A stretch of 64,000 nt of DNA from Heterotrichella gracilis. Its lineage: Eukaryota > Sar > Xanthophyceae > Tribonematales > Xanthonemataceae. The number at the start of each line of letters is the position of its first letter. The first letter of the stretch is position 1. This document shows, piece after piece, positions 3,509 to 60,050 of this stretch. Position numbers and translations under genes: made by a program. Below the pieces are notes generated by a model. That model was not told where the DNA came from and made no database searches. It was given only the letters and a program-made list of their open reading frames with translations. The stretch spans positions 103,984 through 167,983 of the forward strand of contig JAULBX010031591.1 of the NCBI GenBank assembly GCA_032358255.1. The letters run 5' to 3'.

Positions 3509-6500
3509 TCAGTTGATGACCGAGTACTCTATCCCCAGGATGGCAAACGCCTGCTCCATCATCTCGGGCCACTGCGCATACTCCAGCCGCAGCCTGTCGT
3601 TCCACGCGATGTAGATGCGGTCCACCAGCAGGATGGACCCATCCCCAATGATCTTCTCCAGCACCTCGAACTCTGCCCCAGCGATGTCCACGTTGAGCAC
3701 CACGTAGTCCTCGGGGCGCACGTTGCGCAGCAGCCACTGCCCAATGTCCATGCTCCGCACCTGGGCAACGAGACAAATTATGTGGTTTTCAAAACAGACC
3801 ACACGAGTGCAAAATTGCAGAGAAGTGATATAAGGTATTTCAGGCGCGCAAGGTGCAGCAAGGGCATGGGCGTCAGTCGGGCCAGGCGTGCCTGGCGTCG
3901 TGAATGCAATGGTAATTGGGCTCCTTGCTCAGGCCAGGGATGTGTGTCACTAGATAACAAAATTACCAACCAATGGTGGATACTCAATGCCAGGACAGGG
4001 CTGGCTGACGCATGGCATACACTTCTTTCCGGGTGATTGCTGCTCTGGCTCAATGACTACATAACAAAACTTATCTACCAATGATATGCTTTAGGGTTTA
4101 GGGTTTGGTGTACGCACCGGGATGCGGCGGCCTCGGCTGGAGGGCGGTGTGAACATGCTGCCCCCCAGGGACCATGCCGGGCCATGGAGCTTCGATGACA
4201 GGAAGTGTGCCACACTGATGCCAAAGCTGTCATCGGTGGTTGTGGTCTGGGAGAAGTCTGTGGGGGGGTCCACATCGGTGGACAGCTGGACCTGGTGGGT
4301 GTGGGTGTGGGTGTGGGTGTGGGTGTGGGTGTGGGTGTGGGCGTGGGCGTGGGTGTGGGTGTGGGTGAGGGTGTGGGGGTGGGGGCGTGGGTGGGGGTGG
4401 GGTGGGGGTGGGTGTTTGATTTAGAGGACAAAACGAATGGGGAAGTTAAACATGGCAAAGTGACGACAGAAACATCAAAACACCTCCTTTCAAACCCAAA
4501 TTGTATGAAGTTGCATCAGAGTGCATATGGTGAACTGGACGATCCAGCAGGTCCAGGTATTGGGTTGGCTGCCATTGCAATTACTGCCCATTGCGTAAAA
4601 GTGCACCTATCACCCCACCCCACCCACCCTCTTGCTCAAACCACCACCCCACCACCCACCTGCCCCTCCCGATCCCACGCAGCCGCCTCCACCACCCGCG
4701 CCCTGTCCCCCAGGTTGGCGTGGCGCAGGAAGGCCTTGAGCGCGGGTATGTGCGCTGGGTTGGGCTCAAACGCGTACACGTGGTAGGAACCAGCAGAGCG
4801 ACTGGCCTGCGCAAGGTAGGCGCCGATGGAGTCGCCGCGCTTGGAGCCCAAATCCACCTGTGTGGCGGGGTAAATTGTTTGTGGGTATGGATTTTTGCCA
4901 TCCATCGAAAGTGCAGCCCTATTAGGGCCCTATTAGGGTAGTCATACTGGGCCTAGTATCAATCCTGACGGCAAGCAATGTGGCGTTCATGCCCACAAAA
5001 GGGCCGGTTGCAAGGCACAGGACACTTTCTTACAAACGCCTGCCGATGCACAACATTTCCCCCAGGACCACCACCAACACAGACAGCGGATTCACATGCG
5101 TGATGCTCCACACTCACCAGTACATTGCGCGCTACTGCTGGTGGCTGGTCCTTGAGCAACGGCGCCGAGGGCGGCCTGGAGTGCCCCCCATGCGTGCCCA
5201 GTCGCATGGGCAGCATGGCCACATCAAGGTCTGAGGTGCCTGCATCAAGGGGGAGAGCGATAAGAGATTGCCAGGAGGATAGCAGGATGCAGGATAGTGG
5301 CAGAAACAACACGGCATCAACAGGCACCCGTTTGCCCCCCCGGGAGTCACACATTACGCCAACCTCACAGCACCCACCACAGCCCCCACCACCGCACCCA
5401 CCTGCCACATACAGCTGCCAGCCCTGGCTGCCGTGGCTGGAGTCAAACACCACGTAGCTCCCATCGGGGCTCCACAGGGGGGTGAGCCCATCGTCATGCA
5501 GCACACCCCCTGGGCTGCCTGGCAGGTACTCCCCCACTATGTGCACCGCGGCTGTCCACCTAAAACATACAATAATTTAGTTAGGGGCAAACATATTATT
5601 TCATGATCAAACTTTAATCTACAACATTTATACACACATAAGTAAATATGTGCATTAGGGGTACACTAGAGTAGCCCTACAACATTTAGTTATGTACCCG
5701 TGAAAACAGTGGATTCCCGCAAGATTCAGCATCAGCATTGTGCACACGCGTTGTACTCAAATGCATTCCAGCAATCCAGCTGTAATAACAGCCAGCTGTG
5801 CACATTTGGCGCCAAGCAATTTGACCCTCGAACTGTTCACACCTTTCGTTGGTCTTGCACGATCATTGGTCAGGTCAGCGCTATGGCCCCTGGCCTATCG
5901 CCCACCACTCTCAAACCACAACACTACCAGATTTTCAAAAGGAAGTGGGCTTACCTGTCCCAAATGAACAGCTTCTTTTTCGGTGAGGGTGCTGCGTCCA
6001 CCAGTATGAAGCGGTTGTTGTCAAGGAAGTAGCGGCAGTGTTGGGCGGGCACCAAGGCGACTGCAGGTGGGGATGATGCGGTGAGACGGTGGGGTGGATG
6101 TGGTAAGTGCGATGCATGCAGATGCGGCTATGTGGTGTGCACAAGGATCAAGCGGATGTTGGGCCACCACACCGGAAGCGGTCGGCCGGCGCTTGCACCC
6201 CCACCCCCGCTACGCATTGTTTTCTTGTACTTGCAAAGCACGTGGTATGCAATGCGCGCCACTCAGCCTAACGCAGCTGCCCTGTGTACAACCATCTACC
6301 CATGCCTCCCCGCCATGCCTCCTACACCCATGCCTCCACCCACCCTATCCCCCCAATCCTTGTACCACCGCCACACACCGCTGGTCGGCGTTCCCAGGTG
6401 CACAACCACCTGCCCCTGCACCTTGTAACACCCGCTGCCATTGCACACCGCAATACCTTGATAGATGCGTGCCAACCACGTGGTACACATTCCACGCCAC

Positions 6501-9500
6501 TCCTCCACACATACCTGTCCTGTGCGCAATCATTCACCCACGTATGTCCCTGCCCCTCCTTCCCCCCCACCCCACCACCACTCACCACTGGTTGGCACCT
6601 CCAGCTGTGCAACCGCGCTCCCCTGCACCTCGTAGTACCCGCTCTCATCGCACACCAGCAGCGCCCCCCCGCTGCCATAGCTATGATGCCCCCCCTTCAC
6701 CAGCGGCACCCGCCACAGATTGGCCCCGTCAGACCCCACCGTCATGAGGTAGCTGTGGTGCGTCTCGGGGCTGGCGCTGCAGTTTGCGATGTGGTAGGAG
6801 AAGGCCACGTGGGTGGCCTCGCGATCAAACTGCGGGTGGTGGTGGTAGTGGTGATGGAGTGGGGTGGGGTAATGATGAGAAGTTGCAGCAACTGAGGGGT
6901 GGAACAGAGTGGGTCTGGTAAAGTAAATCGCCAGAATTTAATGGCTATAATTGGTGAATTTTTTTTAAAGCTGTGGTTCCAAATATATTTTTGTTAATGT
7001 TACTCATTTGTTCATTTGAATATTCTTACATCAAGGGCTACCTGCCATTGACAATGATTGCATATGACCCCCGCCCTCCTCCCCACTCACCACTGCGTCC
7101 TCGACCCAGTGCATGCATGTGGCCGCATCGTCCGCCGGCAGCGTCTCAAAGTGGCGGTACGTTGCCCCAGAAACGGGGTCCGAGGGCCCCGCAAAGCGGG
7201 TGGACACCGCCACATACAGCTGGCGGTAGGATGCGATAAGGGTTGCAGCGCCACTCAGCATGTTGACCACCCACAGCCCGTCGTCTGAGGGCATCCGGTC
7301 AGCCAGCACCAGGCGCACTGCTGCGTCCCGCGCAGCGTAGCCGTAGCCTGCAGACGGATGGGGGATAGTATGTAAACCTTGAAAACAAAGAGCTAACACT
7401 TGCGGATATTATTATACAAATCTGATTTTGAACATGTAAAGATATTTTGACAATTTTGAGTCACAATTTAGCAACATGAAAGAAGATCAGGATATCAATT
7501 CATTAATAAACACCACACTTTGCCTAAGCAATGCAATATATACACAAGGGTGAATAAAGTAACTCCACCGCGCGCACCTGGCCGCGCCGCGTTCAGCCTG
7601 ATCAAGCTAAAGTGCGTGGCCAGCCTGCCGTCCTCGCTGATCACATGCACCGGCCAGGGCACGCTGCGGGAGCGGGTCATCTGCTGGAGGTCATACACCG
7701 CGGTGCACAGCCCATCAGTGACCACAGGCACACTGGCATCTGGCGCGCAGCCTGCGTCTGTGAAGGCAAAGTAGCGGCTGGTGGGGCCCAGCCACTGCAC
7801 CGTGGGGCGCATGTGCAGGTTCCATGCGGAGGTCATGTCCAGGTGGCGCCAGATCCACATGTTGTCTGCGGGGGGTTGAATGGTTGGTTCAGAATGGAGG
7901 TGGGCGGGTGGCAGGGTGGAGTGAAGGTGGCGGGGTAATGCATGGCGTATCGGGGTGATGCACATGCCATGGTGTGGTTACTGGTGGGACCCAACACTAT
8001 GTGGTGTGACGCAAGCGCTAAAATGGCGCACCCCTGGCCAAAAGGGATGGTCATCTCACAATGAGGGAAGGCACATTAGCAATGCATGAAGCCAACCTCG
8101 AATAGCTGCATTGCATGAAAACAAAGAGGTGCATTTGATGCCTTGATCAGCCACATGCAGATGTTACACACACCTCTTGCCACCCTGAACAGCCCAATTT
8201 CTAGCCTATCCCTTAGGCGAGGCGCGTCGGCAGAGTGCACCTTGACCGCCAGCAGCAGCTTGCGCGAGCGGGACCAGGGGGAGTAGGGCGTGTTGGGCAG
8301 GATGAACTGGGACTTCTGGGCGTTCTCAGTCAGCCGCACCACCTGCAAAGGGTAGGGTTTAGGGTTCAGATTTTGGGGCTTAGAATGTTGGGCAGCAGGG
8401 GGGTGCTGGTGGCACAGGCGAGGGTACATTTTGATGCCAAATGCAGGGCTCGGGCCCAGGTCACAATGGAAGCCAGCCATGCGCCAATCTTCCACCATGC
8501 GACAGTGTTCCTGCTTGCATGGCAATGGACCATGGCAATGGAATGGAATGAAAGCATTGCCAAGCCATGTGCACCCCCATGCAGATGCAAATGCCTGCCT
8601 TGGGGTGTGTGGATGCAACACCTATGTTGCATAGGGGCGCACCTGGCCGGTCTCCAGGAACGGCGGGGCGTCCTGGCGCGACGCCACCGACAGGTACCGC
8701 ACCCTGTCCTGAATCCGCCTGATCTTGTCGCACTGGCTGGTCCTGCCCCCCAGCAGCAGCATCTGCTCCGGGTGCTTCACCGCGTGCACGATCAGCATCC
8801 TGTCCCGGCAGATGTCAAACTTGGGCTTCAGCTGCATGCGGGTGGGGCTGCCTGTGGTCCCCTTGGGGGGGTCCTCGAAGCAGCAGGAGGCCGCCTTGGA
8901 GAGCACCCGGGGGCTGTCTATGCGCCGCGCGTCCACGCTCATGAGCCAGATTCCCACTGAGATGTCCTCATCTGGCATGAACTTGAGCATGTTGTGGTCG
9001 TGGCCCTGTTTGTTGATGCCCAGCACCACCTGGACGAGGTCGCTGGACAGCACATAGCCCCCGCCTGACATGTACGGGAGGTACTTGTTGAGGCTGGTGT
9101 GTTTGAGGTACTCGCTGCCCATCCAGCTGTGGCCACCTGTCGCTGTCACGCTGTTGTTGCGCACCTCCTTGCCAAAGTACATCCGCTCGTGGCTGCACTC
9201 CTGGTTCCTGCAGTGCGCTTTCAGCTCCAGGATGATCCCCGGGACGTCCACAAAGCTGTTCTCCTGGACCTTGAGGAAGAACTTGAAGTTGTCAAAGCTG
9301 TTGGTGGCGTAGTCCAGGGCATAATACACCTTGTGGACCTCGCTCTGCTCCGCCTTGGCCTTGCTTTCGGTGAACACCACGTCCCCATGGAGGTCGCTCT
9401 CCAGGGCTGTCTCTGGCGTGCGCTCGTGGCCAAACAGGAAGAACTTGCCGATGACGCTGTGGTTGCGCACCGCGGCGTCCAGCCACCCGTTCCTGATGGC

Positions 9501-9860
9501 CTGCCTGAACCCTGCCCCGTGGCTGCTGGAGAAGATGGCCACAAACAGGAAGAGGGGCTGTGTGAAGTTCTCCTGCTCACTGCCATACCCAAAGGGCTTG
9601 TCTGTGAACTCTGTCCCAAGGGTGCGGTCCCGCTCGGCCTGAAGGACGCTGTCCTCGTACCGCAGCTGGTGTATGCCTTCCAGCAGGGAGAGGTCGAACT
9701 TGGCGTGGGGGCTGGCTGAGTAGGTACACACATGGCTGACGTGGGTCCTGGACTTGAAGAAGGCAAAGTGGTACCACAGCAGCGCCAAGATGCTCACGGC
9801 CGCCGTGAAACTGAGGATGAGCCTCTCTAGTCGGGTCTTGGCCTCCTTCGCTGTTGCCAT
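3509..9860 (-). CDS. Fusion protein: GT31 galactosyltransferase-like domain, beta-propeller-like region, FkbM methyltransferase domain
   Basis: Eleven phase-consistent exons: 8643-9860, 8174-8342, 7578-7865, 7091-7347, 6586-6829, 5955-6060, 5402-5559, 5118-5239, 4660-4857, 4118-4291 and 3509-3760 (1061 residues). Residues 12-35 form a single signal anchor, so a type II Golgi protein is likely. Residues about 104-310 resemble GT31 (RQAIRNGW, YMSGGGYVLSSDLV, EDISVGIWL). At 196-206, however, the usual KxDDDxFV motif reads KVQENSFVDV, so the metal-binding DxD is gone. The middle contains WD/TolB-like blades, for example TPLWSPDGSYVVFDSS. From about residue 850 comes an FkbM-type SAM methyltransferase: NVLVDLGSKRGDSIGAYL, YHVYAFEPNP, and LNVDIAGAEFEVLEKII near the end. 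FkbM enzymes often O-methylate sugars, so coupled glycan extension and methyl capping is a reasonable inference. No named family has this architecture to my knowledge. Two or three separate genes remain possible but fit the phases less simply. Confidence 0.8.
4090..4107 (+). repeat. Interstitial TTTAGGG repeat beside exon 10 of the fusion gene
   Basis: Two full TTTAGGG units and part of a third, about ten bases inside the intron from the donor at 4117. In the sense of the gene it reads CCCTAAA after a donor, an exception to the usual orientation in this window. Confidence 0.8.
4294..4420 (+). repeat. GGGTGT hexanucleotide microsatellite in an intron
   Basis: A run of GGGTGT units with some GGGCGT, GGGTGA and G-richer variants. 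On the coding (minus) strand it reads CCCACA and directly abuts the acceptor of exon 10, so it serves as the pyrimidine-rich tract. The G-rich strand could form quadruplexes. Confidence 0.9.
6240..6660. repeat. Diverged tandem duplication (about 207-237 bp offset) spanning an exon end and its intron
   Basis: Bases 6376-6450 resemble 6583-6656, which is the 3' end of exon 5 of the fusion gene with its donor. A second block, near 6240-6310, resembles one near 6477-6545. The pattern is a tandem duplication that copied the exon edge into the downstream intron and has since diverged. Confidence 0.65.
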
Positions 9861-14088: not shown

Positions 14089-14111
14089 CTTTGTGCTGGA
14101 CAGTGGTTTCA

Positions 14112-14116
14112 TGTAA
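14112..14116 (+). promoter_or_regulatory. Putative TGTAA polyadenylation signal of RPS25
   Basis: TGTAA about 24 bases after the RPS25 stop, matching the chlorophyte signal. It would imply a very short 3' UTR. Confidence 0.5.
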
Positions 14117-14319
14117 CTGATTCCATCCCCTATGCGAGACCGTCTCGAGTGCCTCCTGCCGCAGTGGCACAACCCTTGAGTCTTTACCTCTGGTGGAGCA
14201 CACTATGGGTGTGTCCCCAGCAAACGCATGGATAGTTTGGAAGCGTTGGGCATGGGGAAGGGGCCATAGCCAAGGGGCACCTGGTTGGTTTGCATATATT
14301 TGCAAAGCTGCATGGATAT

Positions 14320-14353
14320 CCACCATCCATACCATCGATGGTATGGATGGTGG
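14320..14353. repeat. 34-bp perfect palindrome
   Basis: Two 17-base arms, CCACCATCCATACCATC and its exact reverse complement, meet with no spacer. It is about 230 bases past the RPS25 stop. It could extrude a cruciform or form a hairpin in RNA; role unknown. Confidence 0.9.
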
Positions 14354-38567: not shown

Positions 38568-38569
<2 letters not shown>

Positions 38570-38607
<38 letters not shown>

Positions 38608-38617
38608 NNNNNNNNNN
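38570..38617. other. 38-base poly-G run ending in a 10-base N gap
   Basis: G occupies 38570-38607 and N 38608-38617, then C-rich sequence resumes. The gap marks a sequencing failure at the homopolymer, so its true length is unknown. Confidence 0.97.
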
Positions 38618-38740
38618 CCCCAGCTCCACTCCCCCCCCCCCTTGGCCCTGCCCCCCCTGTATGTGCAGCCACCCCGCGCAGCAACACGGCCCTGCTGCCA
38701 AACCTCCAGCGCAGAAGCCAGCGCAGCTGGGTGGCGTGCC

Positions 38741-38755
38741 CTAAACCCTAAACCC
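38741..38755 (+). repeat. CCCTAAA repeats just past the FAD6-like stop codon
   Basis: Two CCCTAAA units and a partial third, eleven bases beyond the coding end. On the gene strand they read TTTAGGG downstream of the last exon. Confidence 0.8.
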
Positions 38756-38765
38756 ATGGAAGGGT

Positions 38766-46400: not shown

Positions 46401-49400
46401 CACTGCACGTCCAGGGGGAAAATTCCAAAGGAGGAGGATGGGGAGGTTGAGCGCCTTTACAGCTGCATCCCCGAGCCCCTGGCGCAGGCGCTGCTGCCCT
46501 TCCAGCGGGAGGGGGTGATGTATGGCCTGAAGCGCAAGGGGAGGGTGCTCATTGCCGATGAAATGGGGGTTGGCAAGACGGTGCAGGCCATTGCACTGGC
46601 GTCCTGCTACAAGGTGGGGTGACATGGGAAACACAGCTGCATGTGCACACAGCCCTGCTAGGCCCACATGGTCATTGCAATGACTTTTGCCATGGTGGTT
46701 ATCTGCTGCTTACAGTTGCAGGCTTTGTATGCTTGCTTCTTGTATGATGCTTGTGGACCGCTGCCATGTGCCAACTCCTACATAGCCCTAATTCAATTGG
46801 TTTTTGCCGCATTGCTGCAGGACGAGTGGCCGCTGCTGATCGTTGTCCCCGCCAGCATGCGCCTGGTGTGGGCGGAGGAGATTGAGAAGTGGCTGCCACG
46901 TGTGCGCCCCTCAAGCATCCACGTCATCGAGGGGGGGGAGGACAGTCTGGAGAAGGGGGAGGCACTGCCAGATGTGACCATCACATCATATGAGATGATG
47001 CAGCGCCTGACGTGCAAGGCCTGCAAGCCGCCTGGCAAGGAGCCGTGTGAGGATCCAAAGGTGAGGGTGGGGGGGGATAGGAGGATGTGTGAAGTGGGGA
47101 GGGCAGAGGGGGGGAAGGAGACGCTCTTGTTGAGGGTATGGCAGGCGGCCACGGTTTATGCAAGGGTGTGCCTGGCATGCCCAGTTATGCTAGCAATAGC
47201 ACCAAGTACAGTTACCACTTTCAGCTTGGTGGTTGATTTTGATGCACTGTATGGGACTGCACGGTTTCCTTGCATACGAAGAGACCAAGATGTGTAGGTT
47301 TTACATACTGCGGCAATTGAGGCTGTACCTCAGCAATGCACTCAATGCGCATTGTTTGCATGCGCCACCCATCCAGCCCCCACATAGGCTGCAGCAATGC
47401 AGCCCATCTTGCCCTCCAAGCCTTAAATCCCCATTGTATGCAGGCATGCATGGCCAATCGGGGCTGGCGCATCATCATTGCGGACGAGAGCCACACGCTG
47501 CGCACCCAGCGCAAGGCACCAGATGCTCAACACACCGAGGCGCTGTGTGCAGCGCTGGGGCGGGCCAAGCGCACCATCCTGCTGTCAGGCACACCCTCCC
47601 TCACCAAGCCATTCGACCTGTTCAGACAGGTAAGGTTTGTAGGGGGCTGGCACCGTCTGGCATGGTGCATCCGCTTGGACCTTGGGCCACCCCTTAGACT
47701 GTGGCACAGAGTTGATTCTAGTGCTACTGTGCACATGCCGCTGGGCCAATTCATCGTTTGAAGCACTGTGTTGGGTGGAGGACCTCTCCCCCATAACCTT
47801 TTGTACGACTGTACTCATGCGACCAAGGATGTTTGCAGGGAGTAAAGGCATTCTAAATGCCCAATGGGTGCCTCACTAGTTAAATGTATGTAAAATCTCC
47901 AGGTCGATGCCATCCATCCCGGCCTGCTCGGCAAGAACCGCTCCGCCTACGGCAAGCGCTACTGCGCCATGCGCCAGGTCATGCGCAACGTGGGAGGCAC
48001 CTATCGCGTAGTGTGGGACGTGACAGGCCTGTCGCGCCCCGGGGAGCTCCACTACCTGCTGCGCGAGGAGGTCATGCTGCGGCGCCTCAAGGTGGATACA
48101 GAAAAGGATAGAATGATAAAAAAATGTGAAATAAATCTTGTAAACATCTGGTATTGAACAAGATCAAAAATGTATGTTTTTCTGTGCATTAGTTTGCTCA
48201 GTTGCTTAGCTTATGTAGTAATACATTTTAATTTTTATTTTTTCTATATTAATACTATTTACATGCTGCGTCGCCTCCAGGTGGATGTGCTGACTCAGCT
48301 GCCTGACAAGCGGCGCCAGGTGGTGCGGCTGCCGCGGGTGACCCTCCAGCAGCTGGAGGATGCGGTGAAGAGTGCACAGGCCGACGAAGGTGAGCATGCT
48401 ACATGGGGTGGGGGGGGTCATCTGCACGTATGATGAAGGAAAGGATGATCATTGACCAATACCACATCACACACACCCCTCTCACTATTTAAGCTATCTG
48501 TAGCAAAAGTCGTGTTCTAATCTGGGTAGCAGCAACCCACAATGGCAGCGTGCATGTTCTCTGTTCAAGCGCCACTTTTGATGGCGGCGTGCGTCCCCTC
48601 CCGCTCTGTGCAGGCGCCTACGCCACCGAGATCAGCGCCGCACACAAGGTGGGGCTGGCCAAGCTCAACGACGTGGTCAACTGGCTGAGGGACACACTGG
48701 GCGTGGGACCCGAGCCGCAAGGGGGGGAGGAGTGGGAGGAAGGAGGGGAGGATCAAGCTACGCGCCCGGCGGGGCAGCAGATCTTGCTCTTCGCGCACCA
48801 CAAGTACGCTGAATTATATATTGTGTACTGCTTATTTGCATGTGATGTCCTTCCTTTAAATTATGAGTGACGCATTGTGGGTAACGCATTGTGAATATGC
48901 TTTAGCAAAGTGCAGCCAGTGAGCACTTGCACGGCGTGCGCCAACCAGGCCTCCATCATTATAAGAGTGGGGAAATTATCAGATCAAGTAATGAGTGTGG
49001 CGCATCCTAATGAGCAATTACAGATTGGAAACAAGAGGCTTATAACCAAACATCACCATCTAAATTCACATTTTGATTTATATCTGTCAACTGAAAATAT
49101 CCTCATTTCGCAGTCATTCGTATGGTTAATTGTTTTGCGGGCGTGTTCCAGGGATGTGATGAACAAGCTGGCGGCCGCCCTGGAGGAGTGCCGCGTGAAA
49201 TACGTGCGCATCGACGGGGCCACAGACAGCCGCGAGCGCCAGGCGGCGTGCCGCGACTTTGCGTCCAACCGCGGCCTGCGGGTGGCGCTCCTGTCGGTGG
49301 GGGCGGCGGGTGTGGGGCTCAACTTCAGCACAGCCAGCGTGGTGGTGTTTGCGGAGCTGCCGGAGGAGGTGGGTGGGGGGGTGGAGTGGGGGTAGGGGGG

Positions 49401-52400
49401 AAGACTGGCGTGGTGCTTGTGGGGGTGGTCAATCAGCTATCTGGCGCATTGGCATAGCAGCGCTGATGAGGGCAAAGAGACAGTGGGAAGTTGCAATATT
49501 AAAGTATATAGCGCCACCCCGCTCTTGCTGTGTGGGCTTGCTAGGCAGAGGCAGGGTGAGGGAGAATCAGCCTCTTGCCTCTGCATGTCTGACCAATGTG
49601 GGTTAACAAAATGCAGCTAATTTTGTTTTCTTTGTTCTGTTCATGTGACGCCTGTTTCTCCCCAATCCTGCAGGTGAGCCTAGTGCGCCAGGCCGAGGAC
49701 CGCGCGCACCGCCACGGCCAGAGGAACTGCGTCAACGTGTACTTCCTGTGTGCAAGGGGCACGTGCGACAACACAAGGTGGGTTACCTGGGGTGGGGTTA
49801 GGTGGTAAGGTGGTCTCAAGTGCATTACATGCCTGTAAGGTCCCTTGTTTCCGGGGGGGCCACATATATGGTATGCAATTCAATACGAAGTCACATCATT
49901 CAACCCCCCTCGAATGCACTTACATAATTCCACTTGGTGTCAGGGTTTCTGGCCTTTTTTACTTAATCTCCCCTCCGACTGCAAACGCCCCTGTGTGCCA
50001 GGTGGCAGGCTCTGAGCAGGAGCTTGCAGCGGGTGTCCACGGTGCAGGACGGGCCCATGGTGGCGGGGGCCACAGGGTCTGGGCGGCGCAACATCGACGC
50101 GGGCCAAGGGGGCCTGGCGGTGGATGATGTCCTGGAGGTGAAAGAGGAGGAGGAGGGGGAGGCTGTGGCTGCTGCTGCCAAGGTGGGTTGGGGGAGCGGG
50201 AAGGGACAACGGTTGCTAGCATAAAATTGGGTGGATTTCTGCACAGGGCTAGTTCCTATCGTGCATTCTGATGAACGCTTGCCGGCACAGGGGTTGGTTT
50301 CCCCTGCGAATGGGAATTTACACCACATGGACCATATTGCGCCAAACGTATCAAGCAGCGCCTTTGCAGTTGCCGCAGGCCCCTTCCTTGCCCTCGGTGG
50401 AGGAGGGTGCACCAGCCGCTGCGGCCACCGTGTCTTCCCCATTACCCTCCCCGGTGTCTCCTCCATGCGCCCCATCCGCATCCCCACCTGCCTCCTCCCC
50501 AGCCCTGCCATGCGACGTCATTGACCTCAGCTGCACTCCCCCTCGGGCACACCACAGCCAGTGCAGTTTCCCGATGAACAGCACTCAGCAAGGTAAGGCA
50601 TCTAATACATATTAGCCCTGTTTCCTTCCCGTGACAGTCCAACTGGGTTCACACAAGAGATTGGATGAATATGCTCCCTTTGTGTATCGATAAAGGAATC
50701 ATGCTTCTGCGGTAATTGTCACACTCGCCACCCATGATGTAGGGGACGAGGCTGGTGCCTCCACACCCGCAGCCACCCAAACAGAAATTGCTGAGGCTGA
50801 CTGTCTCGACGCCACACAGCCAGCTCCAGCTCCAGAAGAAGATGAGGACGAGGATGTCCAGGTGGGTTGCCAGCTGGCAGGGTCACGGTGCCGCAGCTGC
50901 TCCACCTGGCCGCCTCCCGGGACCAGGCCAGGCCTGTGAGGTCCTGAGCACTAATTACAGGTCTTAAGTTACCCTACATAGAGATTTGGCCAAAGTAGGA
51001 CCTTCCAGGTTCCTTTGTTCCAGCAACAGGACTTGGCTCAGTGGGTGTCTATGATAAAGATTATGTAATATTAGTCCCAAGGTAGAGATGGGGCAGTGTG
51101 TCCCAGGGAGATGACAGCTGCCGCTTGTGCAGGTGTGGTTTGAGGTGAGCAAGCACAGCGGGCGCGTGCACCTGCACCGGGAGGCAGACGGTTCCTCCCC
51201 GTTTGGCCTCAGCATCCCCCTGGAGGAGCTGCTGGCAGGGGGGGAGGAGCAGATGCTGGCCGAGCTCAGGGACATGATGCGGCCAGGGTAAGTTAGGGGC
51301 CAGACTTGCGATGCACTAGTCAGGCTGCACTAATGAAGTCCATGCTTGGAATAACTATTGTACCCTCCTATAAACTGACACTGATACTGGTGTTGCAAAT
51401 GCTGCTGTGCTTCATGAAGTTATTAATATTGTTGTTACATGCAAACATTGCTCCATGTAATCCTTGTAAGTATCTGTCACCCCGGTGTATGATTATCGTA
51501 TACTGGCACGTTGCAAATTTTGACCCATAGTGCTCACAGTCATCATCCCGCCCCCTCATAACGTGTCTCTTTCTCAGGGGCGCATCAGGGTGTGGGTGGC
51601 TGTGCCCCGCGGGGCTGCACGAACTGCGCGCATCCGTCCTGCAGCGCCACCTGGCCTGCTTGGTGCGCCAGGCACGGGAGTTCGCTGCGGAGTGGTCGGA
51701 GACCCGCGCCATCTACCAGAAGAAGCTGTATGGCGCGGTGCTGCAGGCGCCCCTGGAGGTGCGCTAACCTGTGATATGGAGGTCAGCGCGCCTTACAATG
51801 CTTTGTCCTTGAATACCAGAACCTACTGGCAGAAGCACAATTCAAATAATCTGGGTAGTTAATACCGCAGATATAAAACATCATTGGTGTTTACTCTTTT
51901 TACAATGCTTTGCTTTCAACCTTCTATTCTTGATGCCTCATAAGTTATGAGTCATGACATGTTATAAGTGCTTTCCATGTAGGTTGTGCTGCTTGAGCTT
52001 GAGGAGCAGGCGCGTCAGCAGGGCGCCAGTGGCAGCAGCACCCTGCGATTCATACCCAAGGACAGGTCTGACCTGGTGCTGCCACCTGGCGCAACCTTGC
52101 ACGACGTGCAGGTGGCAAACGAGAGGTGGGTGGCTGTTTAGGGTGTAGGGTTCATGGCGTGCCAGGGCAGTGCCATCAGACTACATTCATTCAAGCAACA
52201 TGGACCAACCAGATATGTACCAGGTATGTACCAGCGAAAAGGGTTGATATGTATCAAGGTGTTGATACATGACGGGGGCCCGGACTGAATGCAACAATCA
52301 CAAGTGTATAATCAGCTACCATTTCCCGTTCGTAGTGGACCACCACCGCCTGCAAACAGTCTCAAACCCTAATCTTTGAACACCCTGAATAGGCCTCAAT

Positions 52401-53842
52401 TTCCATTCTCCCAGGTATGGGACCACCACCACCTTCAAGCAGGCCTTCACAGCAGACGGCACCCGCCTGTGCATGCACTGCCTGGCGCCCAGCGAGGGCT
52501 GCGGCCCACCGGGGGCACCCGTGCGCTCAGCCAGCGCGCTGTTCTGCACCGCAAAGTGCCACACCACCTTCTGCATCAAGTCGTACGGCAGCAGCCTGCG
52601 GCGCCAGGTGTTCAAGCTGGAGCGCGGGGTGTGCCAGGTGTGCAAGTACGACTGCCACCAGCTGGTGCGGAGGCTGCAGGTGCGCTGCGGGGTTGGTGTT
52701 GTTGTGGAAACAACAGACGTGAAACCAGTTGAATGTTTTGAAAGTTCAAAATTGTAGTTACAAGGGTTATTCACAGGGTGAGGGTGTAAATGTAGAGTGA
52801 TCAAGGTTCATGTACTGGAATGGGGCAGGAACGGGGGAGGGGCGGTGTGGTGGTGTGCTGTTGTGACCATTCAGGATCAGCGGAGCATGCGCGCATTCTA
52901 CAGGTATTATTGCTGATTGAGCCCGTGATCCCACCCTCCCCTCCCCCACCGCAGGCCATCACAGTGGACGACCTGCCTGCTGCCGAGGGCCTGAAGCGGC
53001 GCATGGCCATCATCAAGGCTGAGCCCAACTGCAGGATGGGCAAGCACGGCTACACCAAGCTGGCGGAGAGGCTGGCAGGCAGTGCAGTGGCGGGGAACGC
53101 ATGGCATGCAGGTGAGACTGGACTGCGCATGGGGTTGTTTGTTGGGAACATGTTGCAATACGGGTTTGGCTGGGCAGGATTGATGCAGCTCCATTGACAC
53201 CATCTCAGGCGCTGTTACCCTGAATACCTTCCCGTTGAATGGGGGTCTCTTTTGCAGTACATTAAAATCCAGACAGCTGTCACGCACTGCAGACAGTTAC
53301 AAGTCCCAGAATCAGTTGTGCGTGTTGGAGTTTGACCTCTCAGCCAAGCGTCAGGGGCAATCTCCTGTCAATGTACCCCTTGTTCCCCCTCATCCTCACA
53401 CTCATCCCGCCTTTCCCTTCCTGCAATGCATACTTTGCCATTGATGAATAGGTGGCAGCCTGCGGAATTGAGACCCCAGTCGAATTGCATCTCCAGATTG
53501 CTTCTCACCAGCCAGACACCATGGCCGGCGTCTCAGGCATCCCATGTGCCTCCCTCCTCCCCACACTCCAACTCCCCCTTCCCCCCCCCTGCAGACCACA
53601 TCGTGCCTGTGTTCAAGGGCGGTGGCCTGTGCGAGCTGGACAACCTGCGCACCCTGTGCGTGGCCTGCCACGCAGACGTGACCAAGCAGCAGGCAAAGGA
53701 GTGGGGCAAGAACAAGGTGGACCCCAAGCAGCCCACCATCACGGCGATGTTTGGGGCGGGGGCCCAGGTGCGCAGGCCCTACAAGCGGGCCAAGGTGGTG
53801 TACCTGTCGGATAGCGATGCGGAGGTGGTGGAGCTGGATTGA
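43419..53842 (+). CDS. ZRANB3: ZRANB3-like SNF2-family annealing helicase with C-terminal HNH nuclease domain
   Basis: Twenty-two exons from 43419-43459 to 53595-53842, phase-consistent, 1723 residues. Helicase exons include 46415-46613, 46821-47060, 47444-47629, 47903-48091, 48281-48389, 48614-48803, 49152-49368 and 49674-49777. SNF2 motifs: ADEMGVGKTVQAIALA (Walker A), IIIADESHTLR (DESH), ILLSGTPSLTKPFDLF, and VALLSVGAAGVGLNFSTASV with QAEDRAHRHGQ. A Cys-rich segment (HGVCQVCKYDC-like, here RGVCQVCKYDC) precedes the HNH fold: DHIVPVFKGGGLCELDNL, then RTLCVACHADVT. The C-terminus has a PIP-like KQPTITAMFG and the acidic VVYLSDSDAEVVELD. The N-terminal 690 residues hold a four-Cys finger (CPGIFSGRGC, CTEC) and a long Gln/His/Pro-rich stretch. 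Homologues rewind forked DNA and cut it at stalled forks. The second exon's acceptor is uncertain; the N-terminal part could be a separate gene. Confidence 0.88.
48073..48285 (+). repeat. Duplicated proto-splice site flanking a ZRANB3-like intron
   Basis: The exon 9 end, CATGCTGCGGCGCCTCAAG then GTGGAT, recurs as CATGCTGCGTCGCCTCCAG then GTGGAT at the acceptor (48262-48286). One copy supplies the donor, the other the acceptor. This is what intron birth by tandem duplication of an AGGT-containing exon segment would leave. Confidence 0.8.
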
Positions 53843-53937
53843 GGGCAGGGTTTAGGGTTTGGGGGTGGGGGTTAGGGATTTGAGGGTTTGAAGGGTTGAA
53901 GTACTGGAAGTGGTGGAGCTGGACTGAGGGTAGGGTT
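53822..53937 (+). repeat. Exon-edge echo of the ZRANB3-like stop-codon region
   Basis: GAGGTGGTGGAGCTGGATTG and the following AGGG (53822-53846) recur as a GAAGTGGTGGAGCTGGACTG version at 53907-53930. TTTAGGGTTTGGG lies between them, so the last codons and stop have been copied downstream. Confidence 0.78.
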
Positions 53938-54876
53938 TTTGGGGACGGAGAGGGTAGGGTTTAGATATTCGAGGGTTTTGAGAGGTTCAGGGTTGGAGAG
54001 GGCGGTTGGATGCAATGGAGGGTTTGAAGTTTTGAGAATTTCAGGGTTGCGAATTTTTCTTTCGTGACTGTGACATTTCAGGCTGTTTATTATATTTTCA
54101 AGCAGCATTGTTCGGGGGCGAGGAGCAGGATGCGCGCCAGGTTTAAGGTTAAGGGTACCCTTAACCTTAAACATAGCCAAGCTTGGTCCTGACCAGCAGG
54201 ATGGTTGAATGAATACGTTCGCAAGTGGATGCACCAGACAGTTGTATTTTCTTGGCATGACATTGACTACTGCGGTAGAATTTATGGTCATCTGATAATT
54301 TCCTCCACGTAATACCTGGCCATTGAGCTCGAGCCTCGCCATTTTGTACACCATGAAGGCCATATTGATTGTTTACCGTAACCATTGTTTACATCGCTCT
54401 ATCAGGGCTCCTACTGGGCCACTTTACCGCACACATTACTCCTAGATGGAGCAGTGCACTGTTACTGTTAAAGAATGAAAATGGCTTTGTCACAAACATT
54501 TTCGCCCATACATCGGCAAAACTGACTGTGTGTGTTTCAAGGAAGGTTGGTGCACCGTGCACCATGATTGCAGCCCAACCCTAAACCCAAGGGGGTGGTG
54601 TGTGGGTGGCGGCTCCATTGCCTGCATGCAGGTGCAAACGTCGAAATCCCCGTCACTTTGCATGCATTGTTGGCCGACTGCCAACGATAGGGTTTGTTGT
54701 CCCCAGTGTGCAGATAAATAAGATGCAAAGGTACCAGACCGTAACAGTGGTCCTTGCCCAAAGTTGGTGCCATGTCGTGACTTCAACTCATCGAGCAGTC
54801 CAGCGCCTGAGCTTCAAGCAACCAGGTTTTGGGTAAACTCGTGTAGCTCCTGTTGTCTATCAAAGTTTGAGGGACC
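53843..54876. other. Intergenic region between ZRANB3-like and TRM11 genes
   Basis: 1.0 kb between two plus-strand genes. The first 200 bases are G/T-rich degenerate telomere-like sequence containing the stop-region echo. A 32-bp palindrome lies at 54141-54172. The rest should be 3' UTR and the TRM11 promoter. Confidence 0.55.
54141..54172. repeat. 32-bp perfect palindrome
   Basis: Two 16-base arms, GTTTAAGGTTAAGGGT and its exact reverse complement, meet at a GTAC centre. The arms are built from TTAAGG units, reminiscent of degenerate telomere repeats in head-to-head orientation. Confidence 0.9.
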
Positions 54877-57800
54877 ATGAGCGCCGCTGGAGCCACCGTT
54901 CTACGGCCGCTCGTGGCAGATGGGCCACGCACCTCTGGGCACGACACCCATGCATGCGCCACCTCGACAGCCCTCCGGGAGCTCTCCATCTCAGAGCCAC
55001 ACCAACCACGCCAACCTGAAGCATCTTCCAGCGCTGTCGACACCCACTGTGTGCGCTATCTCTGTTACCTCATGCACCGGATACTCGACCTTCGAATAGA
55101 AGAGGTCAAGGCATGTGCTCAGCTGCTAGGCTTCAGTGACCATTTCAGGATGGACGTGCCGGTAGGGGGGAACGAGTACTCCCCGTTCTGGTACGCCTGG
55201 CTACGGAACGACGAGGAGGCGAAGCAGATTGCGGAGAGGGCCATTCTAGTCAAGGTGAGGAGGTGGCACCTGCAGTGTGGTGGGTAGGGGGCACTGTGAT
55301 AGGGGTGATTTGCATGCATGCACGTGCTAGTTGTGAGTGTCTCACGAAGCCCAAAGGGCAACGCAGCCTTTAAGGTGAAACTTGATATTCTATTGCATAT
55401 TAAGCAAGAAATTTGGTACACAGTCAATACTGCATATGCATGCATGCTGAATCCGTATGCATGCTCGTCCAGTACTATGCTTTCTACCAGCCAAACTCCC
55501 CCCGTTTTCAGGGTTTGTACGAGGTGTGGGGGGAGGGCTCCACGTGGGAGGAGGTGGTGGCAGCCGTGCACCAATACCCTGAGCACCGGCGGGCACCCTA
55601 CGGCGGCTCTGAAACCACGTTCAGGATCCACATCGACACCTGGGGGCACGGAATGGGCGCCGCAGAACGCATGGCACTCATCGACAGCTGCGAACAGCTG
55701 CCCATCAAGGTACAGCGCCGCTGCATGGCAAGTCCACTTCCACCAGCCACCCATGCCCATGTTAGAGTCTAGGATGTTGGTTTTAGGGTCTTGTGCCCAC
55801 TGGCTGCACTGATTGGCAATATGGCCGCATGGCATCCACCATTATTTTTCAAAGATCCTGATTCAGGATCACCAAGATTCGTATGGCATGGCACAATGGC
55901 GTAATGCTGCCTCCGCCCAAGAAAAGGCAGAGTTTGCGTGCACGGTGTCATGCAACTTGCGTACCTTACAACAGTGGCAGGCACCGTTCTGCAAGTAGAA
56001 GGCTTGCCGCAACAAAGGAGCCATCAAGCACCAACATGTTGCATAACAAGTGTTTATGGCACTATGTATATACACACACAACGCATGCAGTGTCAATGAC
56101 GGTCAAGCTGCATGCTGCATGCTGCATTCGGTCATGCTGCACGCATTTTGGTATGACATACCAAAATGCGTGCAGCATTTTTGGCACATGGGCAATGGCA
56201 GATGGCTCCATCTTTGCTGCAGGACAAGGTTAAGCTGGACACCCTAAACCCTAAAACCGAAACCCCATCTGTGCAGGGCAAGGTCCAGCTTGACAACCCC
56301 GACGTCACCTTTCGAATCATCCTCACCAAATCCGGGGAGAGGTCAGGGCTGCCAGATGTGGTGAGTGCCAATCTGATGATCAATAATCAGGCTTTGTATA
56401 CCCTAAACCCTAAAATTTAAATGACAAGGAGCGCGGCCATTGCAATGCATGATTGGCACCGTCTTGCCACATTTTTCCACATCCATTTTCCACTGCCAAT
56501 GTGCACCTCACATATCATATGTGACATATGCCACCCACACCCACACCCACAGGCCCCCAACCGCATCCATTTCTGCCGGGAGGTGGCGAGCAGCAACCGC
56601 TCTGTGGTTGGCCACTACGAGCCTAAGCGCAGGCACTACCCCAAACCCTAAAAATCCTAGAACCCTAAAACCCTAAACCCTTCGCACAGGCCCCCGACCG
56701 CATCTACTTCTGCCGGGAGGTGGCGAGCAGCAACCGCTCCGTGGTGAGCCACTACGAGCTCAAGCGCAGGCGCTATTTGGGCCCCACCTCCATGGACACC
56801 GAGATGGCATTTGTGATGTGCAACTTCGCGGGCATTCGGCGGGGGGACCTGGTGTATGACCCCTTTGTGGGTACCGGCAGTATCCTGGTGGCTGCGGGGC
56901 ACTTGGGGGCCATGACTGTGGGCACGGATATCGACATTCGGGTGATCCGGGAGGGTGCGTGAAGGGTTTCTGGATAGGGTTTTGATGTAGGGTTTTGGTT
57001 AGGGTTCAGGGGTGGCGGGGGGGGCGCCTGGGGGCCATGACTGTGGGCACCGATATCGACATCCGGGTGATCCGGGTGGGTGCGTACGAGGGTTTTGGGG
57101 TAGGGTTTTGATGAAGGGTTTTGGTCAGGATTTTGGGTGGCAGGTTGGACCATGACTGTGGGCACGGACATCGACATCCGGGTGGTTCGGGAGGGTGCGG
57201 ACGAGGGTTTTGGGGTAGGGTTTTGATTTAGGTTGTTGGTTAGGGTTCTGGGTGGCGGCTGGGGACTAAGACGGGGGCACAGCCATCCGGGTGACCTGAA
57301 GGCTACATGAAGGATTTTGGTCCAGGGGTTTGGTTGAATATTTTTCCTGCACGCACAGACATCCCCCACGAATAGCACCACCCCTTTTCCATCACCCTGA
57401 TGGTGGGCCCCCTTCCCCACATGCCCAGGCAAGAAGGACAAGGCAGGCGAGCGGGTGGACATCTGGAGCAACTTCCGGGACTACAACCTGCCTCCCCCCG
57501 TGGGGCTCATCAGGGCAGACGCCCACAGCCTGCCCTTCCGAAGCAATCTGGAGGGCATTTTCGACAGCATCGTGTGCGACCCGCCCTATGGGGTGCGTGC
57601 GGGTGGGCGCAAGCTGATGCCCAGGGAGCAGCCCATCACCAACAGGTGTGATTCGGGGTTTTCAGGAGGCCGTGGGGATTGTATGTTTTGCAAGGCAGGG
57701 GCTGGTTGTTGAGCGCTTGTGGGTCGTCGTGGGAGCGTATTTTGTCTTTCCCTTTGCATGTAGGCGTGTTGCTCTTTGCGTGCCTCCCGAGAATGGTGTG

Positions 57801-59701
57801 TGTGCGTGTGGGCACAAGCCAATGCCCAGGGAGCAGCCCATCACCAACCCCTAGGTTTAGGGTTAGGGTTTAGGGTTTGTGTTTGTTGTTAAGGGTTGTG
57901 GGGTTGTTGTGGGTATGTGTTTTTCAATTGTCAGGAGGGGAGGGTGCTGCATTTGCGCGCCTCCCCAGGGTTGGGAACCGTACCGCTGGGGTTGCGGGTG
58001 GCTCTGCCAAAACGTGATGAGCTTTTCATCCTCATTGTCTCATTCCAAACGAGTCGTTTGCAAACGTAAACCCCTGAATTTGTTTTCTACCACCAACAGG
58101 GCCGACCATGTGCCTGCCACCCAGCCCTACACACTGGGTGAATGCCTGAGGGACCTGCTGCACACCGCTGCACAGACGCTGCGGCTGGGGGGAAGGCTTG
58201 TGTACTTCCTCCCAGCGGTACCGGAGCTGTACAGGTGGGGATTGGGGCTGGGGATGACGCATGGATGGTGCAGAACACTGGGCGATCCTTGTATACGTTT
58301 GGAACAAGAGCAGCAGGGACATATATTAATTAAAATTAATACCAATATAGCAGAAATGATGCTGCATGGCATGGCAGAGCAATTGGGCACATCGCACAGG
58401 GCTGCATTGGAATAAATAAATAAATAAATATCTACGCAACCTGTCCTTGAACAGGCGCGTTGGTTAAGGAAGAGGATTGAGCGAAGAAAATGGCAGTGCC
58501 CTTCTGTCCGCTGTTTCCCCTACCATATTCGTTGGGTGCACTCCTGTATGGTGTGGGAACACCAGGAGTGCAGGGTGGTAGGTTAACCTACCCCCCGTCT
58601 CGACAGGGCTGCATTGGCCATGGTGCATGTTGAAATCAAGGTCCCCACCATCCCATCGAGTTTGCCTCATGCAACTCTTCGATGGCCCTCAACTTCACAA
58701 TCCATGCTTGCGGTGTTGTTTGCATACCCAGGAAGGCCTAGACCCCGTTGCAATCGTGTGGGCAAGATCCCTGGCCTGCGTGCACGGTAGGGTATCTGCA
58801 CCATGTATGTTCCCTTTGCCAGGGTTTCAAAGTTGTTTGCATCCCTCAGTGACGACGAGATCCCCCAACACCTCGTCCTAGGGTGAAGCGAAACCTTCCA
58901 AATCCCTTGCTTAGGGGTTCAAAGCTGTTGTTTGCACCCCCAGTGAGGATTGTAATCTGTTGTATGCATCCCCAGTAAGGATTGTACTCTATTGTTTGCA
59001 TCCTCTGTGAGAATTGTAATCTTTTTTTTGCATCCCCAATGAGGACGAGATCCCCCAGCACCCCGCCCTAGGGCAGACGGAAATCCCCCACAACCCTGAC
59101 TTAGGGTTCTAAAGCTGTTTTTTTGCGTCCCCAGTGAGGACGAGATCCCCCAGCACCCCGTCCTGCGCACCGTGTCCAACTGCGAGCAGCCGCTGACCAG
59201 CAGATACAGCAGGCGCCTGGTCACCCTGGAGAAGGTGAAACCCTACAATAGGGTCGAGGAGGAGCGGTTCTACGAGGAGCAGGGGCCGCCAAGGTGGGGA
59301 GGGCTGCAAAAAAGGAAGGGAGGATTGCCAGTGGGATTTGGAGGGAACTTGGCGTTGGCGTTGCAACGATTGGTTTCGTTTTTGGTGTTCGCCACACTAG
59401 CAATGACCGCAAATATATGAATGCAAATCAATACAACTAGAGTGTAGATGGGGAAATCCCAACTGGAACAAGCTTACAATCACACTCACAAGCATGAGAC
59501 ATGCCTACCAGCTGAGCCATATTGTGCGGTGGGTTAGGGTTATCAACTTCCCAGCTGAACCCTAAACACCGCCTCCGCGTTGACCCTCACAATACTTTGC
59601 TGCGCAGCATGGCCATCGACCAGGTGAAGGACTTTGTGTACGAGTTCAAGGAGGAGGCGGACAAGCCAGGCAAGCAGCGGTTCAGGAGCAAGACGCAGTG
59701 A
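54877..59701 (+). CDS. TRM11: tRNA (guanine(10)-N2)-methyltransferase, TRM11 catalytic subunit
   Basis: Eight phase-consistent exons: 54877-55254, 55512-55709, 56277-56360, 56690-56954, 57429-57645, 58100-58234, 59135-59293 and 59608-59701 (509 residues). The N-terminal half is the TRM11/THUMP-like RNA-binding part (YLCYLMHRILDLRIEEVKAC, then YEVWGEGSTWEEVV). The Rossmann methyltransferase half has KRRRYLGPTSMDTEMAFVM, the SAM motif LVYDPFVGTGSILVAAGH (about 277), GTDIDIRVI and the catalytic IVCDPPYGVR (about 358). It should form m2G at position 10 of tRNAs with the partner TRM112, in the cytosol. Most introns carry degenerate copies of neighbouring exon ends, so exon choice has some risk. 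The second copy of the exon 4 start (56690) was used because the first (56553) runs into a TAA. Confidence 0.92.
56134..56178. repeat. 45-nt perfect inverted repeat with 1-nt centre in TRM11 intron 2
   Basis: Arms of 22 bases (56134-56155 and 56157-56178; left arm begins ATGCTGCACGCATTTTGG) flank a single A. In RNA the arms can pair apart from the few bases needed to turn the loop. Confidence 0.9.
56217..56296 (+). repeat. Exon-edge echo at the start of TRM11 exon 3
   Basis: The exon start CAG, GGCAAGGTCCAGCTTGAC (56274-56294) has an upstream version CAG, GACAAGGTTAAGCTGGAC at 56220-56240. CCCTAAACCCTAAAACCG lies between them. Confidence 0.8.
56553..56780 (+). repeat. Duplicated first 90 bases of TRM11 exon 4
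   Basis: 56553-56641 and 56690-56778 are about 90% identical; both follow a CACAG acceptor and both start GCCCCC. Between them lies a run of CCCTAAA and CCTAAAA units (56642-56682). The first copy's reading frame ends at a TAA inside this telomere-like run. Confidence 0.9.
56642..56682 (+). repeat. CCCTAAA-type array between two exon copies in TRM11
   Basis: About five imperfect CCCTAAA units, the densest C-strand telomere-type patch in the window. Confidence 0.85.
56901..57300 (+). repeat. Exon-edge echoes: end of TRM11 exon 4 present about four times
   Basis: The exon end with donor (about 56901-56960, core CATGACTGTGGGCACGGATA) recurs at 57026-57090 and 57150-57215, with a weaker trace at 57262-57300. 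Each copy is followed by GAGGGTTTTGGGGTAGGG-like sequence. Most copies keep a GGGTGCG donor-like site. Confidence 0.88.
57603..57878 (+). repeat. Exon-edge echo of TRM11 exon 5 end followed by TTTAGGG array
   Basis: 57603-57645 (core ATGCCCAGGGAGCAGCCCAT) recurs at 57807-57850. The second copy runs directly into TTTAGGGTTAGGGTTTAGGG (57855-57874). Confidence 0.88.
58835..59170 (+). repeat. Exon-edge echoes: start of TRM11 exon 7 with acceptor, repeated upstream
   Basis: The real acceptor and exon start (59125-59165, core GAGGACGAGATCCCCCAGCA) have fuller copies at 58835-58885 and 59025-59075. Shorter TGCATCCCCAGT-type acceptor copies lie near 58930-59000. Each full copy ends in CCTAGGG, with TTAGGG sequence about 50 bases further on. 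Confidence 0.85.
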
Positions 59702-60050
59702 CACGCTGCCAACAGGCCAGGCAAGCAGCGATTTAGGAGCAAGACGCAGTGATGGCCTGGTGCCACCATTGCGCGTGTCTGGGAGGACAGCCATGCATAC
59801 CTCAATGACAGGCTGAGTGCATGTGACGGGGAGGGCCCATCAGGCAAGTGAGGCAAGGAGCGCTTCAGGAGCAAGACGCAGTGATGGCCTGGTGCCACCA
59901 TTGCACGTGTCTGGGAGGACAGCCATACCCATGCAAGTCACAGTGACAGTGATAGGCTGGTGCATGTGACGGGGAAGGGTCCATCATCAGCCGCACTTAG
60001 CCAGTCCGTCGAGCAGCGCTTGAGGAGCATAACTCAGTGATGGATTGGTG
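59669..60050 (+). repeat. Exon-edge echoes of the TRM11 last codons and stop, about four copies
   Basis: AGCAGCGGTTCAGGAGCAAG with the ACGCAGTGA stop (59669-59701) recurs at 59719-59752, 59850-59884 and, more diverged, 60010-60040. Longer flanks (GGCCTGGTGCCACCATTGC) are shared by the second and third copies. Three spare stop regions therefore follow the gene. Confidence 0.87.

Follow-up and report, generated by a model that had tools for sequence, protein, structure and literature searches.

Copies of exon edges, often accompanied by telomere-like sequence, in the introns and 3' flanks of a 64-kb stretch of Heterotrichella gracilis DNA

The stretch of DNA analysed here (the window: 64,000 nucleotides of Heterotrichella gracilis, contig JAULBX010031591.1) is a eukaryotic one in which 14 genes and 93 introns were modelled, with a median intron length of 252 base pairs (bp). 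Taken by themselves, its genes (FAD6 among them) and its TTTAGGG-type repeats would suggest a green alga. Alignments revealed copies of exon borders that sit in the adjoining intron or past the stop codon. The initial annotation had claimed such copies for at least seven genes and named a fusion glycosyltransferase, GEN1, WBP11, DHHC, FAD6, ZRANB3 and TRM11; we found them in all seven, the FAD6 copy being 14 bp long and below threshold. The gene models were obtained by training a small splice-aware predictor on the window and were then corrected by hand. Six of the copies had been called as exons by the predictor, one in DHHC (35233-35259), one in WBP11 (30220-30237) and four in TRM11 (56223-56228, 56553-56606, 57144-57194 and 58850-58882); these were removed on the basis of reading frame and protein sense, a choice of our own. 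All modelled introns are GT-AG, with the sole exception of RPS25 intron 2 at 13308, which is modelled as GC-AG.

Pfam matches back six of the eight scanned proteins or pieces, namely the TRM11-like methyltransferase, DHHC, WBP11, XPG/GEN1, SNF2/ZRANB3, and the galactosyltransferase together with FkbM. For the TRM11-like protein, tRNA guanine-10 methyltransferases were matched in the PDB as well. A single gene model at 3512-9860 combines a galactosyltransferase domain, a β-propeller-like region and an FkbM methyltransferase domain; the β-propeller-like region of this fusion gives a weak PD40 match under the curated cut-off. The names FAD6, RPL30, RPS25, ISCA2 and PP2A-A are presumptive, being taken from the initial annotation, which had only the sequence to work from. 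With the PP2A-A protein as sole query, no match was obtained in viral contigs, and genome contigs returned eight pattern matches and no relative. Near the 3' end of FAD6, a poly-G run followed by ten Ns (38570-38617) marks an assembly gap.

The 16 events comprise copies of donors (glycosyltransferase, GEN1, WBP11, two in DHHC, TRM11 exons 4 and 5), of acceptors (DHHC, FAD6, ZRANB3, TRM11 exons 3, 4 and 7) and of stop-codon edges (ZRANB3, TRM11), in addition to the duplicated borders of ZRANB3 intron 9. They are listed here with coordinates and strand, a slash marking the splice point:

6232-6656, minus strand: donor of the glycosyltransferase/FkbM fusion gene (exon 6586-6829), tandem duplication of about 200 bp without a telomere block; the exon-edge pair 6365-6449/6572-6656 and the intron pair 6232-6302/6470-6540 are identical in 52 of 71 exon and 102 of 135 intron columns
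22397-22536, plus strand: donor edge of GEN1 exon 7; 22397-22432 is copied to the intron at 22468-22505, with a telomere block (22438-22463) between the copies; splice-site score of the donor copy 1.7
30095-30319, plus strand: donor edge of WBP11 exon 1, tandem duplication with a period of 119; each unit holds 24 bp of exon and about 87 bp of intron, with degenerate CCCTAA within the unit
34787-34944, minus strand: donor of DHHC exon 6 (34922-35051) in three copies (the real one, 34858 and 34798), separated by CCCTAAA-type blocks at 34806-34848 and 34874-34907
35224-35505, minus strand: donor of DHHC exon 5 (35417-35640), 98-bp copy (89 bp of exon and 9 bp of intron), 96% identical and the most similar long pair, with an 86-bp filler and no telomere block
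35602-35756, minus strand: acceptor edge of the same DHHC exon; upstream copy 35715-35738, extended to about 35756 and separated from the exon by a telomere-like block (35690-35711)
39027-39090, minus strand: acceptor edge of the last FAD6 exon; 14-bp copy with AG at 39077-39090 (repeat score 28, under the cut-off) and a CCCTAAA-type block at 39054-39078
48073-48286, plus strand: borders of ZRANB3 intron 9 (48092-48280), with 23 of 25 bp common to both around AG/GT
52134-52442, plus strand: ZRANB3 intron 52126-52414, with a TTTAGGG block 8 bp past the donor and an acceptor-edge copy at 52337-52359 (repeat score 31), followed by CAAACCCTAA at 52361-52377
53821-53978, plus strand: ZRANB3 stop-codon edge copied past the stop, with a TTTAGGG-type block (53843-53882) between the copies
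56218-56294, plus strand: acceptor edge of TRM11 exon 3; copy 56218-56240 (repeat score 26, under the cut-off), (CCCTAAA)2 block 56237-56267, start of the real exon at 56277
56548-56775, plus strand: acceptor edge of TRM11 exon 4, 91-bp copy, 90% identical, with a CCCTAAA-type block (56636-56685) between the copies
56887-57287, plus strand: donor edge of TRM11 exon 4, tandem array of about three copies with a period of about 115-124 and AGGGTTT-type sequence in each unit
57588-57905, plus strand: donor edge of TRM11 exon 5; 56-bp copy 57793-57848 that ends 2 bp before the edge, so that the donor is lost, with a TTTAGGG block (57851-57905) after the copy
58821-59164, plus strand: acceptor edge of TRM11 exon 7; several upstream copies from 58821 to 59069, including a 32-bp array, with AG kept in three of five scored acceptor copies
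59661-60050, plus strand: TRM11 stop-codon edge, with three further copies past the stop at 59719, 59851 and 60012

Judged by the spacing of the copies, these loci have grown by about 50 to 370 bases. Telomere-like sequence had been described as usual at the copies, and by our count a block lies between, in or beside them in 11 of the 16 events; the other five (glycosyltransferase, DHHC exon 5 donor, ZRANB3 intron 9, TRM11 exon 7 and TRM11 stop) have no block at the junction. Of the nine positions at which the acceptor copy of TRM11 exon 4 departs from the exon, four are synonymous, numbers too small for a judgement on constraint. The copies had also been said to keep their GT or AG, which holds for 16 of the 19 scored sites and fails for three. 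Eight of the 19 fall within the 5-95% range of real sites (donors at least 4.0, acceptors at least 3.5). The best are both copies of the DHHC exon 6 donor (each CAG/GTAGGT, 7.9), followed by TRM11 exon 3 (7.5), WBP11 (AAG/GTGGGG, 7.1, with 7.0 for the real donor) and DHHC exon 5 (6.3). As read from their sequence, the copies may be candidate spare splice sites.

The presence of local duplications at exon borders is confirmed. Direct local repeats in the window exceed those of shuffled DNA by two orders of magnitude, microsatellites counted. Among repeat pairs no more than 3 kilobases (kb) apart, blastn returned 24 direct and 4 inverted pairs at a score (S) of at least 40, and five dinucleotide shuffles yielded no direct pair at that score. 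Because blastn overlooked tandem copies with a period below about 60, we added an ungapped, word-free scan at offsets of 15-1200. It gave 88 segments at S ≥ 30 (20 of them in a microsatellite cluster at 4295 and nine in the poly-G run), whereas six shuffles averaged 0.5. An origin from inverted repeats or hairpins was rejected, since the inverted matches are mostly self-complementary palindromes: all four pairs at S ≥ 40, and 20 of the 25 near matches at S ≥ 30, with five others. Three palindromes were recorded separately: a perfect one of 34 bp in intergenic DNA (14320-14353), one of 45 bp with 44 matching inside TRM11 intron 2 (56134-56178), and a perfect one of 32 bp just downstream of ZRANB3 (54141-54172), which consists of head-to-head telomere-like sequence.

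The fair null for the position of these duplications is one that spares exons, because duplications within exons would be lost; we therefore placed events at random while leaving a non-coding stretch to take the insert. Fourteen of 24 events pair exon-edge sequence with a copy in non-coding DNA, as compared to 5.5 expected over the whole window (P = 6e-5) or 7.3 within genes ± 300 bp (P = 0.0014). At S ≥ 40 the count is 12 of 15, with 4.8 or 6.2 expected (P = 8e-5 and 0.0012). Exclusion of TRM11 leaves 9 of 17 (P = 0.002 and 0.013) or, at S ≥ 40, 7 of 10 versus 3.1-4.0 expected (P = 0.008 and 0.037). The count of 24 leaves out the GTGGGT microsatellite at 4295, the poly-G run at 38570 and a C-rich stretch at 30532; pairs with coding sequence on both sides (9148, 24792, 39984, and 31527 with its relatives in the WBP11 proline repeat, some of which reach an acceptor); matches of telomere sequence only (34808/35670, 56241/56400, 57111/57307, 57206/57854) and nested pairs in multi-copy loci; and the purine-rich pair 48721/49375 (score 31), which links an exon interior with a later intron and by rule would add one edge event. 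The FAD6 and TRM11 exon 3 copies, with scores of 28 and 26, are described and likewise not counted. A detection bias, by which exon copies would be more visible, is unsupported and unlikely, because the aligned exon columns are no better conserved than the non-coding ones: across the six events that offer 20 or more of both kinds, 216 of 262 exon columns (82%) and 303 of 375 non-coding columns (81%) are identical. The results support an excess at exon edges larger than tolerance by itself would give.

Four genes, RPL30, RPS25, ISCA2 and PP2A-A, show no exon-edge copy at S ≥ 30, in agreement with the initial annotation. Together with AP2 they contribute 2,704 of the 24,306 intronic bases, and with so few bases their lack of copies proves little; a sparing of housekeeping genes by the process is not supported, as the difference is not significant. 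Duplications are also present in or next to two of these genes. In the 3' flank of PP2A-A, a tandem duplication with a period of 76 bp (63562-63708) starts about 10 bp past the stop codon. The AP2-type gene carries a 42-bp tandem repeat (16650-16729), which lies in an intron only and starts 2 bp from the acceptor.

To define telomere-like blocks, we took TTTAGGG-type runs and counted mismatches over 14 bp. With at most one mismatch there are 19 blocks, of which 16 are intronic, three lie outside genes and none is exonic; ten shuffles contained no such block. At most two mismatches give 31 blocks, none exonic, with 1.0 expected overall, and at most three give 47, two of them exonic, with 11.7 expected overall by chance. 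Eight of the 16 intronic blocks with at most one mismatch lie within 15 bp of an exon edge, versus 2.06 expected (P = 0.0003). The value is 7 of 11 without TRM11 (P = 0.0007) and 7 of 14 when one block is taken per intron (P = 0.0017); it is weaker at two mismatches (9 of 25 versus 3.3, P = 0.003). Control motifs GCATGC and TTTTT do not cluster at edges, and mild enrichment within 15 bp is seen for CCACCA (0.30), CACCCT (0.29), GTGGGT (0.24), CCCCC (0.22) and GGGGG (0.20), versus 0.12-0.14. Within 40 bp of an edge, TTTAGGG points away from the exon in 13 of 15 blocks at up to two mismatches (P = 0.007; 9 of 10 without TRM11) and in 10 of 12 at up to one (P = 0.039). Acceptors have nine C-type blocks and no G-type block, while donors have two C-type and four G-type (Fisher P = 0.011). 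Two blocks, 3 and 10 bp past stop codons, both point outward.

Blocks are also associated with the copies themselves. Seven of the 47 blocks with up to three mismatches abut copies on both sides (gaps no wider than 6 bp, score 24 or more), compared to 20 of 2,868 block-free intronic windows, and those 20 fall into the microsatellite, the AP2, GEN1 and WBP11 repeats, a CCACCCA-rich stretch and a C-rich stretch. The seven belong to five loci: GEN1, DHHC (two), the TRM11 exon 3 acceptor, the exon 4 acceptor and the exon 4 donor (two). Flank similarity reaches 24 or more at 14 of 30 intronic blocks; the same level is attained by 14% of intronic positions drawn at random and by 4% of edges that have no block. 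The proximity of blocks to edges is nevertheless independent of the copies, because near-edge blocks that lack a copy are common. No flanking copy was found for these six:

1002-1025, minus strand: block 8 bp from an acceptor of the beta-oxidation MFP gene
4084-4112, minus strand: block 5 bp from a donor of the glycosyltransferase gene, directed towards the exon
8349-8374, minus strand: block 6 bp from an acceptor of the glycosyltransferase gene
20865-20900, plus strand: block 5 bp from the acceptor of GEN1 exon 4
30946-30968, plus strand: block 5 bp from a WBP11 donor
38736-38758, minus strand: block 10 bp beyond the stop codon of FAD6, directed outward

Our preferred reading, which we hold with slightly better than even confidence, is that these structures are scars of the repair of staggered breaks by fill-in, frequent telomerase addition and end joining. 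From the duplications, the blocks between copies, the excess at exon edges, and the proximity and near-edge orientation of blocks, we infer a break, its fill-in and a contribution of telomerase. A staggered double-strand break, or two close nicks on opposite strands, would arise at an exon border, and fill-in of both ends would double the stretch enclosed by the nicks (about 14 to 98 bases, and about 200 in the glycosyltransferase gene). Telomerase would often put a few TTTAGGG units on a 3' end, and joining would then yield the arrangement copy-telomere-copy. Where the duplicate spans a splice site or stop codon, the spare copy would stay in intron or 3' flank without harm to the protein, and later tandem multiplication of some units might have produced the arrays at the TRM11 exon 4 donor, exon 7 acceptor and stop. 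That the copies are direct, together with the position of the blocks, supports break repair with fill-in and telomere addition. Break repair with templated tandem duplication had been suggested before; the anatomy of the loci fits the repair part, while "templated" is a poor word because the copies are direct and template switching would yield inverted ones too. As a hypothesis within this reading, the 3' ends left attached to exons, which are G-rich (on the sense strand after donors, on the antisense strand before acceptors), would suit the priming of telomerase, and this could explain why exon edges are favoured and why blocks point outward. A further step, which we put forward tentatively and regard as rather unlikely, is that splice signals themselves steer this telomerase-assisted repair, a border being healed outward with TTTAGGG and a duplicate.

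The clustering and orientation of blocks might alternatively reflect selection on splicing, with telomeric scraps inserting anywhere in introns and being retained near splice sites, where CCCTAAA upstream of acceptors would act as a pyrimidine-rich tract and runs of GGG would help downstream of donors. This is a serious possibility, if a doubtful one. Block-free introns show the same asymmetry, with 36% G after donors and 35% C before acceptors, and in 55 of them GGG occurs near 30 donors and 6 acceptors, CCC near 30 acceptors and 9 donors. Several other G- or C-rich motifs are enriched at edges as well (0.20-0.30 versus 0.12-0.14), and G-type blocks upstream of acceptors would create false AG sites. 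None of these motifs, however, is as concentrated as the blocks (8 of 16), and two blocks point outward 3 and 10 bp past stop codons, where there is no splicing, although these are two cases only. Selection on splicing would also leave the duplications unexplained. These would follow from ordinary local tandem duplication combined with a survival filter, in which exonic copies are lost, edge copies are kept, intronic copies fade and telomere scraps are incidental. We consider this unlikely, as edge events exceed expectation (14 of 24, P = 6e-5 to 0.0014), non-coding copies do not fade more quickly (82% versus 81% identity in six events) and incidental blocks are not expected between copies. 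It does draw strength from the 5.5-7.3 of 24 edge events that exon-sparing random placement already gives, from the modest excess that remains without TRM11 at S ≥ 40 (7 of 10 versus 3.1-4.0, P = 0.008-0.037), from duplications away from edges (AP2 16650, GEN1 23506 and 25000, the PP2A 3' flank), and from the glycosyltransferase, WBP11 and DHHC exon 5 donor events, which resemble plain tandem or filler duplications.

The order of events could also be reversed, if telomere scraps came first and were fragile, and stalled replication or breakage followed by slippage or template switching made the copies. Interstitial telomeric repeats are reported to be unstable (PMC6410037), the array at the TRM11 exon 4 donor has a block in every unit, and six intronic blocks lie within 10 bp of an edge without a flanking copy. 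We nevertheless judge this order improbable: the blocks at the TRM11 exon 3 and 4 acceptors lie between the copies and not beside the outer one (with the caveat that the intron before exon 4 has another block about 130 bp further upstream), and template switching predicts inverted copies, of which none but palindromes was seen at S ≥ 40. Very unlikely is the view that blocks and copies are relics of introns newly formed within exons. ZRANB3 intron 9 does carry the expected signature, a duplicated exonic AG/GT segment in register at both borders (23 of 25 bp) around an AT-rich filler, and its border score of 21 makes it the sole intron of the 93 to reach 12 (null fraction 0.0007); by its sequence it is likely a recent intron gain. 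As a general rule, intron birth was rejected, the signature being clear in 1 of 93 introns; TRM11 intron 5 is borderline, and there the exon end alone is involved. Since most other events reproduce a splice site that already existed, the intron there must have come first. Assembly error or chance can be given almost no weight: the poly-G run and 10-N gap at 38570-38617 attest to a local defect, whereas the long copies are about 4-28% divergent, many have unrelated filler, and shuffles give close to zero.

Several observations weigh against the repair of staggered breaks as the source of these loci. Five of the 16 events have no telomere block, the block of TRM11 exon 5 follows the copy and that of WBP11 lies inside the unit, and staggers reaching 98 bp are rather long if the breaks were simple. 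No flanking copy accompanies at least seven of the blocks near edges (the six listed and ZRANB3 52134). Chance alone would give about 12 of the 47 blocks under the loosest definition and, taken singly, just four blocks exceed random intronic positions in flank score at P < 0.05. The outward orientation is a local bias, because among the 10 blocks lying beyond 40 bp only 4 point away from the edge; it could equally stem from selection on splicing, and the data on G-rich ends do not separate the two. P values for the edge events are guides and not proofs, because the event list was curated after the data had been seen. The insertions, moreover, are deduced from one sequence, and TTTAGGG is a presumed telomere repeat of the host, as its telomerase is a presumed one.

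Each of the component processes is known. TTTAGGG is among the telomere repeats reported in plants and algae (PMC6410037). In the horse, telomeric repeats inserted with a flanking duplication were found at 3 of 66 loci and attributed to staggered breaks (PMC7215372), and target-site duplications have been described at 6 of 130 loci in rodents and 4 of 25 in primates (PMC2246262). Human telomeric blocks are absent from exons and otherwise fit random insertion (PMC7215372). The window resembles these mammalian interstitial insertions in its short internal telomeric runs (19 blocks), in a site duplication at some loci (7 of 47 blocks, where a break would have occurred) and in the lack of exonic blocks among those with at most two mismatches; unlike them, its blocks are concentrated at exon edges, where they point outward, and some come with duplications of 20-98 bp. 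New introns of Daphnia likewise carry direct repeats that were read as repaired staggered breaks lengthening introns (PMC4202315); those exon-intron repeats measure 4-12 bp and the text does not mention telomeres, whereas the copies in the window reach 98 bp, involve existing splice sites and come with telomere scraps. Intron gain by tandem genomic duplication of AG/GT (PMC3443670) is matched by ZRANB3 intron 9, while most of the other events duplicate a border that was already present and add length to the intron or 3' flank. Plant telo boxes are also telomere motifs in genes, for which telomerase acting on free 3' ends has been proposed as the origin, but they are short motifs in 5' regions (PMC3022908) and not multi-unit exon-edge blocks with duplications. 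Direct repeats at intron-exon borders were interpreted as insertion scars by Rogers and Bendich in 2025 (PMC11782384); theirs are 4-30 bp long and pair the 5' and 3' borders of one intron, and the part of the paper considered here held no link to telomeres. In the open-licence literature, we found nothing that joins telomeric insertions to exon edges, and relative to that literature the density, the edge bias and the outward orientation appear to be new.

The growth of introns and the origin of new splice sites are long-standing problems for which few datable mechanisms are at hand. A telomere scrap caught between two copies can be read as a scar, and in a genome with many such scars intron growth would become countable, datable and tied to one repair reaction. 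Copy-telomere-copy repair may be one route of intron growth. If it is true that such repair is steered by splice signals, it would lengthen introns, supply spare splice sites and occasionally give rise to new introns throughout the genome.

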